A stretch of 64,000 nucleotides of DNA from Zoogloea sp. (GTDB lineage Bacteria; Pseudomonadota; Gammaproteobacteria; Burkholderiales; Rhodocyclaceae), in assembly GCA_016703645.1 (NCBI GenBank), contig JADJBR010000009.1:239935-303934 (forward strand). Reading direction: 5' to 3'. Within the stretch, counting starts at the first letter, position 1, and each line of letters starts with the position of its first letter. Made by a program: the position numbers and the translations under genes. A model generated the notes under the pieces. It ran no database searches and had not been told where the DNA came from. It worked only from the letters and a program-made list of their open reading frames with translations. This document shows positions 3,671 through 64,000 of this stretch, piece after piece.

Positions 3671-5026
3671 TCAGGCCCTGGAAAAAAGGAGGGTCACCGT
3701 CGTGCCGCCCTCGGGCCGGCTGAGCACGCGGATCGCACCATCAAAGCGCTCGATGATCCGCTTGGCCAGCGGCAGGCCCAGGCCGAGGCCCTTCGGTTTG
3801 GTGGTGAAGAAGGGCCGGAACACCTGGCCCATGACATCCGGGGGAATGCCCGGCCCCGAATCGATGATGTCCACCTGCAGGTGGCGGCCATCGGGCACCG
3901 ACAGGCGCAGCACGCAATCCCCGCCCTCGCCCATGGCCTCGGACGCATTGGCGATCAGGCTGAGGATGACCTGACGGAACAGCGAGGTCTCGCCGCGCAC
4001 CAGGAAGAGCCCCGCTCCGCAATCCACGGCGATGCGCTGCCGGCGCCGGGCAAAGGTGGCCTCCGACTGACTGGCGCACTCACCCAGCAGGCTCGCCAGA
4101 TCCACCTGACCACCCATTCCGGAGCCGGTGCCCGCGTAGGTGAGTAGCTCGGTGATGCAACCGCTGATGCGGTCCACCTGGGCGATGATGTCCCGGGCCT
4201 CGTCCGAGCAGTCCTCCCCCGGTGATTCCAGGGTCAGCTCGGCACAGGCGCGGATCGACGACAGGGGGTTGCGGATATTGTGGGCCACCGACGAGGTCAG
4301 CTCCCCCACCACCGCCAGCATCTCGGCATTGAGCAGGCGGGCGTGCTGGCGCTTGATGGTCCTGTCGGCGCGCCGGATCAGCCCGAACAGGGTGCCGTAC
4401 AGCAGCAGGGCGCTGCCCAGGGCCGTCAGCCATACCTGCACCCGCCCCTCCTGGATCGCCTCGGTCAGGGCCAGGGGCGCCTTGTAGAGCTCCACAGCCC
4501 CCACCACCGCGCCGCTGCCCGGGCGCATCACCGGGATGTAGCTCTCCACGAAGAAGCGGACCGACGGGTCGAGGCCCACGTGCTCGGGCTTCTCCTCCTG
4601 CCCTTCGACGATCTGCCCGGCATGCACCACCAGCCGCCCGCCCATGGCCTCGTCGAGCTCGTCGTTGTCCTCGAAGCGGCGGCCGATCAGGGACGGGTCG
4701 GTGGACCACAGGATGGTCCGGTTGGCGCCGAACACGTTGGCCCGCAACACGTCGCGCATCTGCCCGAGATGCTGCACGGTGTTGGCAAAACGCTCACGCA
4801 GCACGGGGTCGTCCGGCCGGGCAAGGAACTCCAGGGAGCCGTCCGCCACCAGGATGTTCTGGACGAAATCCCGACTGATGCTGGCCTCGCGCTGGAACAG
4901 ATGGCTGTTGAGAAAGCTCGAGATCAGCCAGCCGTTGGCTACGGCAATGGCAATGATGACCACCGGGCTGAGCCACGCAAACCAGCGCAACAGGTTGAAA
5001 GGTTTACAGTCTTCTGCGGCTTGCAT
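3671..5026 (-). CDS. Membrane sensor histidine kinase
   Basis: 451 aa from the ATG at 5026, chosen because AGGGAGGT lies 4 bases upstream; a longer in-frame ORF to 5086 lacks such a site. Membrane segments lie near residues 13-32 and about 205-225, enclosing a periplasmic sensor region of about 170 residues. The dimerisation/phosphoacceptor helix reads VAHNIRNPL, so Asn follows the phosphorylated His where Glu is usual. A C-terminal HATPase domain has the N box (NASEAM) and G boxes (DSGPGIP, GLGLGLP). It is first in a two-gene operon with the NtrC-type regulator downstream. The signal is unknown. Confidence 0.9.
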   Translation of the reverse strand: MQAAEDCKPFNLLRWFAWLSPVVIIAIAVANGWLISSFLNSHLFQREASISRDFVQNILVADGSLEFLARPDDPVLRERFANTVQHLGQMRDVLRANVFGANRTILWSTDPSLIGRRFEDNDELDEAMGGRLVVHAGQIVEGQEEKPEHVGLDPSVRFFVESYIPVMRPGSGAVVGAVELYKAPLALTEAIQEGRVQVWLTALGSALLLYGTLFGLIRRADRTIKRQHARLLNAEMLAVVGELTSSVAHNIRNPLSSIRACAELTLESPGEDCSDEARDIIAQVDRISGCITELLTYAGTGSGMGGQVDLASLLGECASQSEATFARRRQRIAVDCGAGLFLVRGETSLFRQVILSLIANASEAMGEGGDCVLRLSVPDGRHLQVDIIDSGPGIPPDVMGQVFRPFFTTKPKGLGLGLPLAKRIIERFDGAIRVLSRPEGGTTVTLLFSRA

Positions 5027-37530: not shown

Positions 37531-37622
37531 TTCGGACGTTCGACACCCTGCAGGCTCAGGGCGTGGCCGTGGCAGAGTGCTTCAGATAGCATCCGCAATG
37601 CATGCACAATATTGGAGACAAC

Positions 37623-38486
37623 ATGACCCACCGCCCAACAGTGTTCGTAGGCTCATCCTCTGAAGGCAAACAGATTGCCAAAGAAGTGCAGCAGGCATTA
37701 AAGGATGTTGCCGATGTCACGATATGGAGTCAGGGAATCTTTCAGCTAAACCACAGTTATCTAGAAGATCTAATCTCCGCATCGGAAACGGCAGACTTTG
37801 CAATATTCGTACTAACCCCTGACGATGTAACAGAATCACGGGATCAGCAATTATCCTCACCCCGAGATAACGTCGTCTTTGAGTTCGGTCTTTTCTTGGG
37901 GTGCCTGGGGCGGGATCGATGCTTTACATTCCACGATAAGTCACAGGACATAAAAATTCCGTCTGATCTTTTTGGAATCTCATCGGCAACCTTCTCACCC
38001 CACTCAGACGGAAATCTAGAAGCCGCCGTAGGGAGCGGATGCCGCGGAATCGAGAAATGTATTCTCAAGAAGGGGCGACGCCCACGGCAACTCAATACCT
38101 ACGTCCATTCTTACCGCTTACCAGCAATCCACGGTAGCTGGAAAGGTACCGCCACTCAAGAAGATGGACCAGATGGCCACCCTCTTGTTGCTGAAGTTAC
38201 AGCCACTTTCGATGCGCGCAGCACCCAGATTGTTGGCAACGGAACATTTCGCTTCACTCGGCCAGAGGGAGAAGAGCTAGAAGCACGTTACAAGTTTAAT
38301 GGTGGTTTCCTCTTTGACCAGTTTTTAAGAATCGAATACGACAGCGAAGAGCAATTCCGCATTCAATTCGGCTCAATAGTATTGGAGTTAGGCACCGATG
38401 CAAAATCACTTCATGGCCGCTTTCAGGGCTACGGATTGCTAACCAAAAGAATAATCCACGGCACCCTCAAGCTGACCAAAGCGTAA
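37623..38486 (+). CDS. TIR-like nucleotide-binding protein with unknown C-terminal beta domain
   Basis: 287 aa from the ATG at 37623 (GGAG upstream). Residues about 5-140 are a TIR-like domain of the PF10137 type: TVFVGSSSEGKQIAKEVQ, then NHSYLEDLISASETADFAIFVLTPDD and VVFEFGLFLGCLGR with Glu87 in the catalytic position. Such domains hydrolyse NAD+ in CBASS, Pycsar and related systems. Residues about 165-287 form a beta-rich domain (GSWKGTAT, GNGTFRFT, HGRFQGYG, GTLKLTK) not obviously STING or a cyclic-nucleotide-binding domain. The gene is AT-richer than its surroundings and lies between phage remnants. A stand-alone defence effector is an inference. Confidence 0.78.
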   Translation: MTHRPTVFVGSSSEGKQIAKEVQQALKDVADVTIWSQGIFQLNHSYLEDLISASETADFAIFVLTPDDVTESRDQQLSSPRDNVVFEFGLFLGCLGRDRCFTFHDKSQDIKIPSDLFGISSATFSPHSDGNLEAAVGSGCRGIEKCILKKGRRPRQLNTYVHSYRLPAIHGSWKGTATQEDGPDGHPLVAEVTATFDARSTQIVGNGTFRFTRPEGEELEARYKFNGGFLFDQFLRIEYDSEEQFRIQFGSIVLELGTDAKSLHGRFQGYGLLTKRIIHGTLKLTKA

Positions 38487-60724: not shown

Positions 60725-60800
60725 GCGGCAGTAGCTCAGTTGGTAGAGCGCAACCTTGCCAAGGTTGAGGTCGAGAGTTCGAGACTCTTCTGCCGCTCCA
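60725..60800 (+). tRNA. tRNA-Gly (GCC)
   Basis: 76 bases including the encoded CCA. Acceptor GCGGCAG pairs with CTGCCGC, anticodon loop TTGCCAA gives GCC, and T loop TTCGAGA is present. Confidence 0.97.
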
Positions 60801-60848: not shown

Positions 60849-60923
60849 GCTCATGTAGCTCAGTGGCAGAGCACTCCCTTGGTAAGGGAGAGGTCGGCAG
60901 TTCAATCCTGCCCATGAGCACCA
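60849..60923 (+). tRNA. tRNA-Thr (GGT)
   Basis: 75 bases including CCA. Acceptor GCTCATG pairs with CATGAGC, anticodon loop TTGGTAA gives GGT. The CCA (60921-60923) is the first part of a 46-base direct repeat that recurs at 62320. Confidence 0.97.
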
Positions 60924-60966
60924 CCCGATTGGCAAAAAGGCCGGTTCCGCAAGGAACCGGCCTTTT
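60921..60966. repeat. Direct repeat 1 (46 bp) containing the tRNA terminator
   Basis: Starts at the CCA of tRNA-Thr and includes the terminator hairpin AAAAGGCCGGTTCC-GCAA-GGAACCGGCCTTTT (about 60933-60967). An exact copy of all 46 bases is at 62320-62365. The pair brackets the ATPase gene. Confidence 0.93.
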
Positions 60967-61050
60967 TTCTGCGCCCCCGGCTTGACGTGAGCATACGGAG
61001 CTTGGCGGGCGCCTTGCACGTTTGCTCCCCCCTTTTGAGTTTACAGAAAA

Positions 61051-61084
61051 TTATCTTAGGCTGATAATTAGCAGCCTAAGATAA
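61051..61084. promoter_or_regulatory. Perfect 13-bp inverted repeat abutting the ATPase start codon
   Basis: TTATCTTAGGCTG - 8-base centre - CAGCCTAAGATAA, ending two bases before the ATG at 61087. There is no room for a ribosome site beyond the palindrome, so translation may be leaderless or controlled through it. Strongly AT-rich against the GC-rich genome. Probably an operator. Confidence 0.82.
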
Positions 61085-61086
61085 AT

Positions 61087-62289
61087 ATGGGTAACTTGAT
61101 GCAGCCAGCGGCCGTATTCCATCGCTCTCAGTACGCTACGGACATGGCCCGGCAGTTGTTGCAGCCGAACGCTTTGCAGGTCCAGGTACGCTCAGGGGTG
61201 TTTCTCTCGGGCATTCGCCGGATCGGAAAAACAACGTTTCTTCGTCAAGACCTGATACCGGCCCTGGAGTCCATGGGGGCCTTGGTGATCTATGCGGATT
61301 TGTGGGCCGACCGCAGCAAGAGTCCGGCTTCGCTCGTGCATGAGGCGGTACGGGTCACACTGTCCGAGTTGGCCGCCCCAGGTACAAGGCTGCTGGACCG
61401 GTTCAAGGGTTTGAACATCGGTGCTGCAGGTTTTTCTTTTGGCTTCCAGGTGGACGCCGTGGGCAAGCCAGGTGGCGCCACGTTGAGTGAGGTGTTCACC
61501 GAACTGGTCTTCAAGGTGAAGACCGATGTCGTTCTCATCATTGACGAGGTGCAGCACGCCCTGGGGACGGAGGATGGAAACAACGTGCTGTTCGCCTTGA
61601 AGGCTGCGCGCGATGCCGTCAACACCCGCCCTGAAACACCGGGTTACCTGCTCTTCCTGGGCACTGGCTCCCACAAATCGCTGGTTGCGGACATGGCCAC
61701 GCGGCGATCACAACCCTTCGCGGGCGCGGTGTCGACCGCGTATGAGCCTTTGGGCTCGGATTTCGTGAGCTGGAAGAAGGCGCAGCTGGAGCAGATCGAT
61801 GGAATCAAGCTGCCTTCGCATGAACTCATGTATCAGGGGTTCCTGGCAGTCGGCCAGCGCCCCGAGGAATTGCAGAATGCACTGGTGCTGCTTCAGTCGC
61901 GTCCGGAAGATCCCAATGTCGCTTTCCCCATCATCTGCTCGACGCTGGCATCGGCAGCGGCAGAGGTCGAGATCGCGAGCATCGAGTCCTTGGGCGAATT
62001 GGCCGCGATCATATTCGACCGCGTCGTCCATGGAAACGAATCTGGAGAATCAGGGCTTTTCTCTGCGGACGCGATCAGCAGCTACTCTGAGCAGATCGGC
62101 ATGGCAGTGGATACGCCTCAGGTGCAAAACATGGTTGACCGCATGATCACGGCCAACGTCATCCATCGTCAGTCACATGGCGTCTATGCGGTGGCGGACC
62201 CGTTTGTTCGGCAGGCCTGGCAGCAGCGCAAGACGATACAGGTGTCGGTCCGTCAATTGCAGACCCATCCCCCTGGGGATGCAGATTGA
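61087..62289 (+). CDS. AAA/STAND-type ATPase with C-terminal winged helix, tRNA-linked insertion
   Basis: 400 aa from the ATG at 61087. Walker A is GIRRIGKTT (about 40-48), and Walker B VVLIIDEVQHAL (about 151-162), typical of ArsR-like archaeal ATPase/STAND-type P-loop proteins. A sensor-like GTGSHKS follows near residue 196. The C-terminal 80 residues look like a winged helix (QNMVDRMITANVIHRQSHGVYAVADPF), which could bind the upstream palindrome. The gene lies between 46-bp direct repeats beside tRNA-Thr, with no integrase. Function unknown; defence or regulation are both open. Confidence 0.75.
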   Translation: MGNLMQPAAVFHRSQYATDMARQLLQPNALQVQVRSGVFLSGIRRIGKTTFLRQDLIPALESMGALVIYADLWADRSKSPASLVHEAVRVTLSELAAPGTRLLDRFKGLNIGAAGFSFGFQVDAVGKPGGATLSEVFTELVFKVKTDVVLIIDEVQHALGTEDGNNVLFALKAARDAVNTRPETPGYLLFLGTGSHKSLVADMATRRSQPFAGAVSTAYEPLGSDFVSWKKAQLEQIDGIKLPSHELMYQGFLAVGQRPEELQNALVLLQSRPEDPNVAFPIICSTLASAAAEVEIASIESLGELAAIIFDRVVHGNESGESGLFSADAISSYSEQIGMAVDTPQVQNMVDRMITANVIHRQSHGVYAVADPFVRQAWQQRKTIQVSVRQLQTHPPGDAD

Positions 62290-62319
62290 ACGATCCCGCC
62301 GTCGGCCAGATTTAAAGAG

Positions 62320-62365
62320 CCACCCGATTGGCAAAAAGGCCGGTTCCGCAAGGAACCGGCCTTTT
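62320..62365. repeat. Direct repeat 2 (46 bp)
   Basis: Exact copy of 60921-60966, including the CCA-like start and the terminator stem. It marks the right edge of the 1.4-kb ATPase insert and gives that gene a terminator. Confidence 0.93.
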
Positions 62366-62437: not shown

Positions 62438-64000
62438 TCAGAGCCGGCTCTGGATCTCCTCAATGAAACCCTGCATGCCGGTGCGGATGTTGCCTGCGTT
62501 GCCTTCGTCGGTATCGATGTGCATGGCCAGGCGGTATGCCGGGTTCACCCGCACCACCACGTCACCGAAGATGAGTTCGCGCTCGCCTTCGATCCGCACG
62601 CGGACGATGTACTTGTCGCGCACACGGAAACGCAGGGCGTCTTCGGGGGTCATGTGGATGTGGCGCTGGGCACAGATGACGCCGCGCTCGATGGTGGTGC
62701 TGCCGGCCGGGCCTTCGAGGGTGATGCCCGGGGTGTTCACCAGGTCGCCGGATTCGCGGATGGGGGGCTGGATGCCGACCTTGAACTGCTCGGTCATGGC
62801 GATCTCCACCTGAGTCTCCTTGCGGGTCGGGCCGAGGACACGCACGTTGGCGATGCGCCCCTTGGGGCCGACCAGGTGCACCTTCTCGGCGCAGGCGAAC
62901 TGGCCGGGCTGGGACAGTTCGTGCTCGGGGGTGAGCTGGTGGCCGGGGCCAAAGAGCTTGTCCACATCGGCCTGGCACAGATGCACGTGGTGGGCGGAGA
63001 TCTCGATGGGGATGGCGGGCGCGTCTTCGGCACGGGCTTCGAGGAGGAGCTGGTTGCGTTCGATGGCGCGCAGGGTTTCCCAGGCCACCAGACGCTCATC
63101 GTCGTTGGTGATGACGAGGATGGTGACCGGTGAATCGTCGGCGGAGATGATGGCGTGGGAGCCCACCAGACCGAGGTTGCGGTTCTTCTCCTCATCCAGC
63201 TTGATGCCCATGTAGCCCAGGCCCTGGCAGGCCAGGCTGCGCACGGTGGCGCTGGTTTCGCCCACGTCGCCGGTGAAGGCCAGCACGTCGATGCCCCCCA
63301 TGGCCGCCACGTAGGCGCCGATGTTCTTGCGCACCTGGTAGCAGAAGGCCTTGTGGGCCAGCAGGGCGCGGTGGTGGCCGTCGCTGGCGGCGGTCTCGAT
63401 GTCGTGGATGTCGCTGGAGATGCCGGAGATGCCCTTCAGGCCGCTCTCGCTGTTGATCAGGCGGGAGAGATCCTCGGTGCTCATGCCGTGGTGTTCCATC
63501 AGGTGGATCATCACCGCCGGGTCGATGCTGCCGGAGCGGCTGGGCATGATCAGGCCGTCGGTGGGGGTCATACCCATGGTGGTATCCACCGAGCGACCGT
63601 GGTCGATGGCGCACAGGGAGGCGCCGATGCCCAGGTGACAGGACACCACCTCGAGTTCGCCGAGGGGGCGCTGGACGACTTCGGCAGCCTTCAGGGAAAC
63701 GTAGCGGTGGGACGTGCCGTGGAAGCCGTAACGGCGGATGCCCTCCTGCTTGTAGAGGTCGTAGGGCAGGCCGTAGAGGTAGGCGTAGGGCGGCAGGGTC
63801 TGGTGGAAGGCGGTGTCGAAGACCGCCACGTGGGGCACGCCGGGCAACTGCTTCATGGCCATGCGGATGCCCTCCACATTCACCGGGTTGTGCAGGGGCG
63901 CAAACACGGAGAGGGCTTCGATCTCGGCGATCACCTGCGGGGTGATGACCACGGCACTGGAGAACTTGCTGCCCCCATGGACGACCCGGTGCCCGACGGC
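62438..64000 (-). CDS. Acetate kinase fused to PduL-type phosphotransacylase (partial, N-terminus outside)
   Basis: The minus-strand frame is open to the window edge (520 codons visible). The N-terminal two thirds are acetate kinase from GHRVVHGG onward: LSVFAPLHNPVNVEGI, AVFDTAFHQTLPP, YGFHGTSHRYV, GIGASLCAI, TGDVGET. After a short break the last 200 residues are PduL-type phosphate propanoyltransferase: SAHHVHLCQADVDKLFGPGH, LVGPKGRIANVRVLGP, ICAQRHIHMTPEDA, with the zinc His motifs intact. PduL makes acyl-phosphate from acyl-CoA and acetate kinase makes ATP from it, so one polypeptide would run both steps of acetate/propionate formation or activation. Confidence 0.9.
   Translation of the reverse strand, partial: AVGHRVVHGGSKFSSAVVITPQVIAEIEALSVFAPLHNPVNVEGIRMAMKQLPGVPHVAVFDTAFHQTLPPYAYLYGLPYDLYKQEGIRRYGFHGTSHRYVSLKAAEVVQRPLGELEVVSCHLGIGASLCAIDHGRSVDTTMGMTPTDGLIMPSRSGSIDPAVMIHLMEHHGMSTEDLSRLINSESGLKGISGISSDIHDIETAASDGHHRALLAHKAFCYQVRKNIGAYVAAMGGIDVLAFTGDVGETSATVRSLACQGLGYMGIKLDEEKNRNLGLVGSHAIISADDSPVTILVITNDDERLVAWETLRAIERNQLLLEARAEDAPAIPIEISAHHVHLCQADVDKLFGPGHQLTPEHELSQPGQFACAEKVHLVGPKGRIANVRVLGPTRKETQVEIAMTEQFKVGIQPPIRESGDLVNTPGITLEGPAGSTTIERGVICAQRHIHMTPEDALRFRVRDKYIVRVRIEGERELIFGDVVVRVNPAYRLAMHIDTDEGNAGNIRTGMQGFIEEIQSRL

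Follow-up and report, generated by a model that had tools for sequence, protein, structure and literature searches.

Cis-mobilizable elements (CIMEs), including the integrase-less ssrA islands of Dehalococcoides, have been described (PMC5704250, PMC3146451). They resemble the locus considered below in carrying cargo between two recombination-site-like repeats beside an RNA gene, without genes for integration or transfer. The dif (pdif) modules of Acinetobacter plasmids, which are moved by XerCD, offer a second likeness, being small, recombinase-less gene modules between repeated sites in the summary accounts used here. No title that we found describes modules bounded by terminators, a search of titles that is no proof of their absence from print.

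We analyzed an insert directly behind tRNA-Thr(GGU) in a 64,000-nucleotide stretch of Zoogloea sp. DNA, the whole of which we call the window. The features of the locus are:

60725-60800, tRNA-Gly
60849-60923, plus strand, tRNA-Thr(GGU) (ARAGORN; Rfam tRNA, 70.6 bits), with the insert directly behind it
60921-60966, plus strand, left copy of the 46-bp repeat, made up of the CCA, trailer and terminator-like hairpin of tRNA-Thr
60967-61034, no strand, unplaced 68-bp filler from the left repeat to the conserved gene unit; homology with the plasmid and relatives begins beyond it
61040-61068, plus strand, promoter-like site TTTACA-17-GATAAT (consensus scan), in a layout shared upstream of many relatives
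61051-61084, no strand, 34-nt palindrome spanning the promoter, a proposed operator with its motif at a fixed distance in family regions
61087-62289, plus strand, gene for a 400-aa AAA+ (ORC/STAND-like) ATPase with a winged-helix-like C terminus
62320-62365, plus strand, right copy of the 46-bp repeat, abutting the ancestral right flank and proposed as the terminator of the ATPase gene
62438-64000, minus strand, acetate kinase/phosphate propanoyltransferase gene (Pfam), continuing beyond the window edge; the ancestral right neighbor, outside the insert

An earlier note on this DNA had described an exact 46-bp repeat that starts at the tRNA CCA and includes the terminator. The copies at 60921-60966 and 62320-62365 are indeed identical (0/46 differences), with no extra matching base on either side, and the left one begins at the first C of the CCA. 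The lone, AT-richer ATPase gene that the note placed between them was confirmed by composition: the insert has a GC content of 58.4%, against 66.5% for the window, and the ATPase gene has a GC3 of 0.72, compared with values of 0.835-0.932 for the five neighboring genes measured. A 30-bp tail separates the end of this gene from the right repeat copy. The absence of an integrase from the insert also held, with 0 Phage_integrase matches in the window; the genome as a whole has 10 such matches, 8 of them above the cut-off, and the nearest on the contig lies about 440 kb away. As in CIMEs, no integration or transfer genes lie between the repeats, which enclose one gene only, and the encoded integrase of a classical tRNA island is missing. 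An Rfam search of the region returned no RNA family beyond the two tRNAs. The right neighbor combines acetate kinase and phosphate propanoyltransferase domains in a single open frame (62438-64000, minus strand). Elsewhere in the window, at 37602-38486 (plus strand), is a gene of low GC3 (0.486) with a CAP12/Pycsar TIR domain (PF10137, E 3.3e-33), a defense-type effector.

We searched for the tRNA region in 60 genomes and for the ATPase in 23 genomes of the genus, both sets including the genome of the window. The empty site with one repeat copy that the earlier note had proposed to look for was found in G004, G013 and G022, which also keep the right neighbor; in their regions (L074, L075 and L079) a lone terminator precedes the acetate kinase gene. 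After the tRNA and its one terminator, G004 and G013 reach this acetate kinase/PTAC gene within about 100 bp; G022, whose tRNA stretch matches the window at 98% identity over 279 bp, has one terminator and then about 300 bp of other sequence before the gene. This fill of about 300 bp in the closest relative (L074 of G022) contains repeated GGGGCGACT-type inverted motifs. Across the 23 genomes of the genus, the pattern that starts the repeat occurs twice in the genome of the window, once each in G004, G009, G010, G011 and G022, and not at all in the remaining 17. Two copies in a relative without the gene, which the note had named as evidence against its view, were thus not seen in any same-genus genome. 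Neither G004 nor G022 has a match to the ATPase at E 0.001, and G013 has a single distant, partial one (34% identity) on a different contig; in all, 8/23 genomes have a match, and the seven outside the genome of the window reach just 30-35% identity. Because relatives within the genus have at most one copy, three keep the right neighbor beside it and none has a close ATPase, we take the comparison to show that the foreign ATPase gene is a true insertion behind tRNA-Thr(GGU).

Close homologs of the ATPase are rare among the genomes sampled around its host. At E 1e-60, the genome of the window was the sole one of 296 sampled same-family genomes with a hit, and five of 399 sampled genomes of the order, again including it, had one. 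The nearest ATPases are Comamonadaceae-like, at about 85% amino acid identity, and in the protein tree the window ATPase falls in a six-row clade (99/99) whose other members are four Comamonadaceae/Burkholderiaceae loci and the Acidovorax carolinensis plasmid pACP3.2. The pACP3.2 relative is 82.8% identical across 99% of the query. As judged from sequence, a horizontal origin of the ATPase gene is shown. Homology at the DNA level, to either pACP3.2 or L023, runs from about 61035, just before the promoter, to about 62325, and, by eye, L110 (pACP3.2) and L023 cease to match one another at almost this downstream position. Within 260 bp 3′ of the gene, neither of them has a terminator like the 46-mer. 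For the 68-bp filler, a search of 150 same-family genomes gave short, chance-level matches only, none of them convincing as an origin. We rejected a phage origin of the gene, with no relative in viral_contigs or phage records and no PHROG; viral_contigs also held no exact match to the start of the repeat.

Members of the ATPase family occur on chromosomes with differing neighbors and in 129 plasmid records, with no constant neighbor among different plasmids (six plasmid regions, of which L110 and L115 are near-identical plasmids). Individual contexts include an H-NS gene shortly after the relative on the same strand (L111), a type IV CRISPR csf2 annotated about 5.7 kb from the relative on a Pseudomonas aeruginosa plasmid (L112; 1260-2306 and 8001-9173), and a 37% identical relative under a gene annotated as an ERCC4 domain-containing protein (hit H8, plasmid NZ_CP031226.1). 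Some copies look degraded: the frame of L055 is shortened, and L107 has one TGA inside its own; in L058 a short tandem motif is repeated just before position 98, ahead of a truncated gene copy.

Flanking repeats are not a general property of this family, an idea that we rejected: repeats of at least 30 nt flank 3/72 loci (that of the window, L029 and L034), and 69/72 are without them, in a scan with 11-nt seeds over 1.2 kb per side in which gene ends were mostly at the standard value, so that some repeats were possibly missed; a diverged copy at L030 did escape it. At L034 the repeat is an imperfect direct one of 32 nt, its two copies lying about 122 bp ahead of the ATPase relative and 103 bp beyond it. 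The earlier note had held that it would count against its view if most relatives carried the gene in unrelated places and lacked the repeats, and for the wider family that is what these numbers describe. Its proposal to search for the ATPase beside other tRNA genes had a two-sided outcome. A tRNA lies in the retrieved stretch at 16/71 genome_contigs loci of the family (in 15 cases a Pseudomonas tRNA-Thr(UGU), in one a tRNA-His), so such neighbors do exist; a general preference for tRNA genes was rejected on this 16/71 and on 0/16 further loci.

The window protein matches the Pfam families ATPase_2, AAA_14 and AAA_22 below their cut-offs (for ATPase_2, PF01637, 27.9 bits against a curated cut-off of 33.2). 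At E 0.01, AAA_22 and AAA_14 match 36/36 aligned family members and ATPase_2 matches 33/36; G47 K48 and D153 E154 are invariant in the family alignment. An AlphaFold2 model (pLDDT 92.1, pTM 0.87) retrieved 2qen (E 5.6e-11, TMq 0.57), 2fna (5.6e-10), Orc1 2v1u (1.7e-8) and other ORC and STAND proteins with Foldseek, and a profile search of PDB sequences found 2fna at E 0.00037. By its predicted fold and its motifs, the ATPase is an ORC/STAND-like AAA+ protein with Walker motifs in an AAA+ core, and the last third of the model looks like a winged helix. Archaeal ATPase_2 proteins (2qen, 2fna) and Orc1/Cdc6 are the most similar described proteins, as the best fold matches of the model; the window ATPase differs from them in its identity of just 13-19%, its scores under the Pfam cut-offs, its bacterial and solitary setting and its own conserved operator. 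NCBIfam gave no match up to E 1, and the family is without a curated name in the libraries searched. A known defense gene was rejected as an identity, the best PADLOC hit being at E 0.012 over 16 residues. The protein may have an accessory, perhaps defense- or stress-type, single-gene function in the cell.

Upstream of the start codon, within 110 nt, the motif ATTAT-N6-9-ATAATTA is present in 55/76 family regions, compared with 2/7445 control windows, and 53 of the 55 have it at -47 to -51; the 21 regions lacking it include truncated genes, deep branches and motif variants. In the window the motif lies within the 34-nt palindrome over TTTACA-17-GATAAT. A looser pattern matches the genome four times: three of the matches are the palindrome itself, and one, elsewhere, has two mismatches. 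Because a nearly private, conserved operator precedes a lone gene whose product ends in a winged-helix-like domain, autoregulation of the ATPase via the palindrome is the likeliest reading, in which the C-terminal winged helix would probably bind the palindrome over its own promoter.

The content of the 46-bp repeat bears on how the gene arrived. Its tRNA portion is the CCA, the last three bases, and the remainder is essentially trailer and terminator; the 3′ part of the tRNA that marks the repeats of classical tRNA islands is represented by the CCA only. Both copies form a strong hairpin (-29.1 and -29.8 kcal/mol; z -5.0 and -5.9), followed by T. A simple consensus scan called neither copy a terminator, which we read as the T-run being pulled into the stem, and we use the word terminator on the basis of hairpin and sequence. 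We surveyed 1.5 to about 6.5 kb downstream of each of the 62 tRNA genes in the genome. A distant copy (>700 bp downstream) of a gene's own 3′ end or terminator was found for one of the 62, tRNA-Thr(GGU), and other matches lay within 700 bp, inside tRNA clusters. Compared with the window 46-mer, the single copies in the genus differ at two sites in G022, one each in G004 and G010, and five each in G009 and G011, and that of G013 gives no gap-free alignment (27 ungapped differences). By these alignments, the putative trailer and terminator in the repeat are species-variable within the genus. On the simplest reading, the first copy, which is the host's, was the source of the second, because the two are identical to each other yet unlike those of all six relatives compared. 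In classical tRNA insertions the repeat contains the conserved 3′ part of the tRNA, and one would expect the attP of a distant donor to have the conserved tRNA in common with the host, not a host-specific terminator. It is possible that gene conversion following a classical insertion would equally yield identical copies.

A parallel is found in Pseudomonas, where tRNA-Thr(UGU) was present in 22/22 genomes, these having been picked for carrying the ATPase. Of 20 regions fetched around this tRNA or its copies, 16 contain the ATPase as well as an intact tRNA-Thr, at distances of about 0.2 to about 17 kb; the tRNA of L164 is partial (54 nt), L165 and L169 are without the ATPase and L167 is a contig end. 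The hotspot has tyrosine integrases, as in L151 with its 440-aa Phage_integrase ORF, and mixes integrase islands with integrase-less modules that contain the ATPase family of the window. In L152 (the L029 site) a lone ATPase is followed by a 79% copy of tRNA and terminator; a partial tRNA/terminator copy follows both the ATPase and DUF5677 gene of L161 and the ATPase and PIN_8 gene of L162; and in L030 a diverged terminator-like copy comes directly after the ATPase, by eye. The modules of L160 and L159 hold an NYN-domain gene and an ORF without a Pfam match, respectively. The closest match to the arrangement in the window is L150 (656-2036), in which an Abi_2 gene, without an integrase, has tRNA-Thr(UGU) and its terminator on one side and an exact 45-bp copy of that terminator on the other; the repeated 45 bp begin 3 nt past the CCA, and the second copy is 1336 bp on. 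L150 has an additional terminator copy, 97.5% identical, at 4007-4047. This is the one further case of an exact terminator-only pattern (1/20 Pseudomonas regions), and six additional regions yielded no convincing terminator-only module; among the sites viewed, L290 has a 43-nt copy of 84% identity about 3 kb farther along. In G711 and G725 the tRNA 3′ end and terminator lie at both ends of tRNA-Thr intervals of about 10-12 kb; terminator sharing is therefore not restricted to lone genes. The sites viewed in the genus of the window showed no integrative element with the att specificity that the 46-mer would have, and the hotspot parallel is in Pseudomonas only.

The explanation we favor, with evenly balanced confidence, is that a solitary, probably self-regulated ATPase gene of Comamonadaceae-like origin was inserted behind tRNA-Thr(GGU) in an event that duplicated the host's 46-bp trailer/terminator. 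The insertion event would have copied the host's own sequence, leaving the left copy to continue ending the tRNA transcript and the right copy to end that of the ATPase. Recombination across the trailer/terminator would have involved an enzyme supplied in trans or host repair, not a tRNA-specific integrase of the element's own, and the ATPase unit would now be incapable of moving alone. Of the two origins offered by the earlier note, site-specific insertion at a tRNA stands insofar as a foreign, integrase-less gene has been inserted behind one; classical attachment at the tRNA is not supported, because the repeat lacks the tRNA body and is made up of a variable trailer/terminator. The other origin, a duplication that supplied the cargo with its own terminator, fits such a repeat better. 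The most serious competitor, possible and clearly less probable than the favored explanation, is a decayed, CIME-like integrative element that entered by means of its own integrase, with the 3′ end of tRNA-Thr serving as attB, and later lost all but one gene by deletion, the 46 bp being attL and attR. A direct repeat at a tRNA without an integrase is what it would leave, CIMEs and integrase-less ssrA islands are on record in the sources cited at the outset, and the Pseudomonas hotspot combines integrase islands with integrase-less modules of the same ATPase family. Against it, the repeat lacks the tRNA body and has the species-variable terminator, whereas the common repeat in L151, L153, L157 and L166 is 27-28 nt of the tRNA 3′ end and excludes the terminator. 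Furthermore, by our own count, 11/59 genomes have a tRNA-side copy without the query terminator and a second copy with it, as expected of integrase islands that displace the native terminator to the far end.

Homologous or illegitimate recombination, by which the gene arrived with a similar terminator or from a conspecific donor and gene conversion later homogenized the terminators, strikes us as improbable. Conversion could maintain about 45 bp of identity, and copies that match each other and none of the six relatives are what it would produce; however, homology to pACP3.2 and L023 reaches about the start of the right copy, and no such terminator occurs in the 260 bp after their genes. An assembly artifact or chimera, the least credible account by far, could be imagined for an assembly in 10 contigs, but the locus lies inside a 1.4-Mb contig, both its outer flanks agree with the ancestral order and it is unique among the 62 tRNA genes.

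When a single gene without an integrase has been inserted at a tRNA gene, it is easily dismissed as a fossil. If what is duplicated in such cases is the terminator and not the tRNA, they would escape the usual island search, which looks for a repeated tRNA 3′ end. A process that brings in a gene along with a terminator would, if real, explain how solitary accessory genes settle without disturbing tRNA expression. A broader idea, which we regard as rather unlikely, is that tRNA trailers and intrinsic terminators are themselves the recombination target, with a trans-acting or repair process that duplicates a terminator of roughly 45 bp and thereby inserts single-gene modules; were it true, each module would arrive insulated and already equipped with a terminator. 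On this idea, the insertion might even involve the ORC-like ATPase itself, whose operator is nearly private. The family is found on chromosomes and plasmids, and its unusually conserved upstream operator is directly testable.

Set beside the systems described at the outset, the insert differs from CIMEs, as those sources outline them, in that its repeat is trailer and terminator, not the 3′ part of an RNA gene, in its single gene and in having no related intact element known at the site. From dif modules, within the same summary accounts, it is distinguished by a repeat that is a 46-bp tRNA trailer/terminator. By the content of its repeat the insert is not a classical tRNA island; in the way it works it may resemble a cis-mobilizable or dif-type module.
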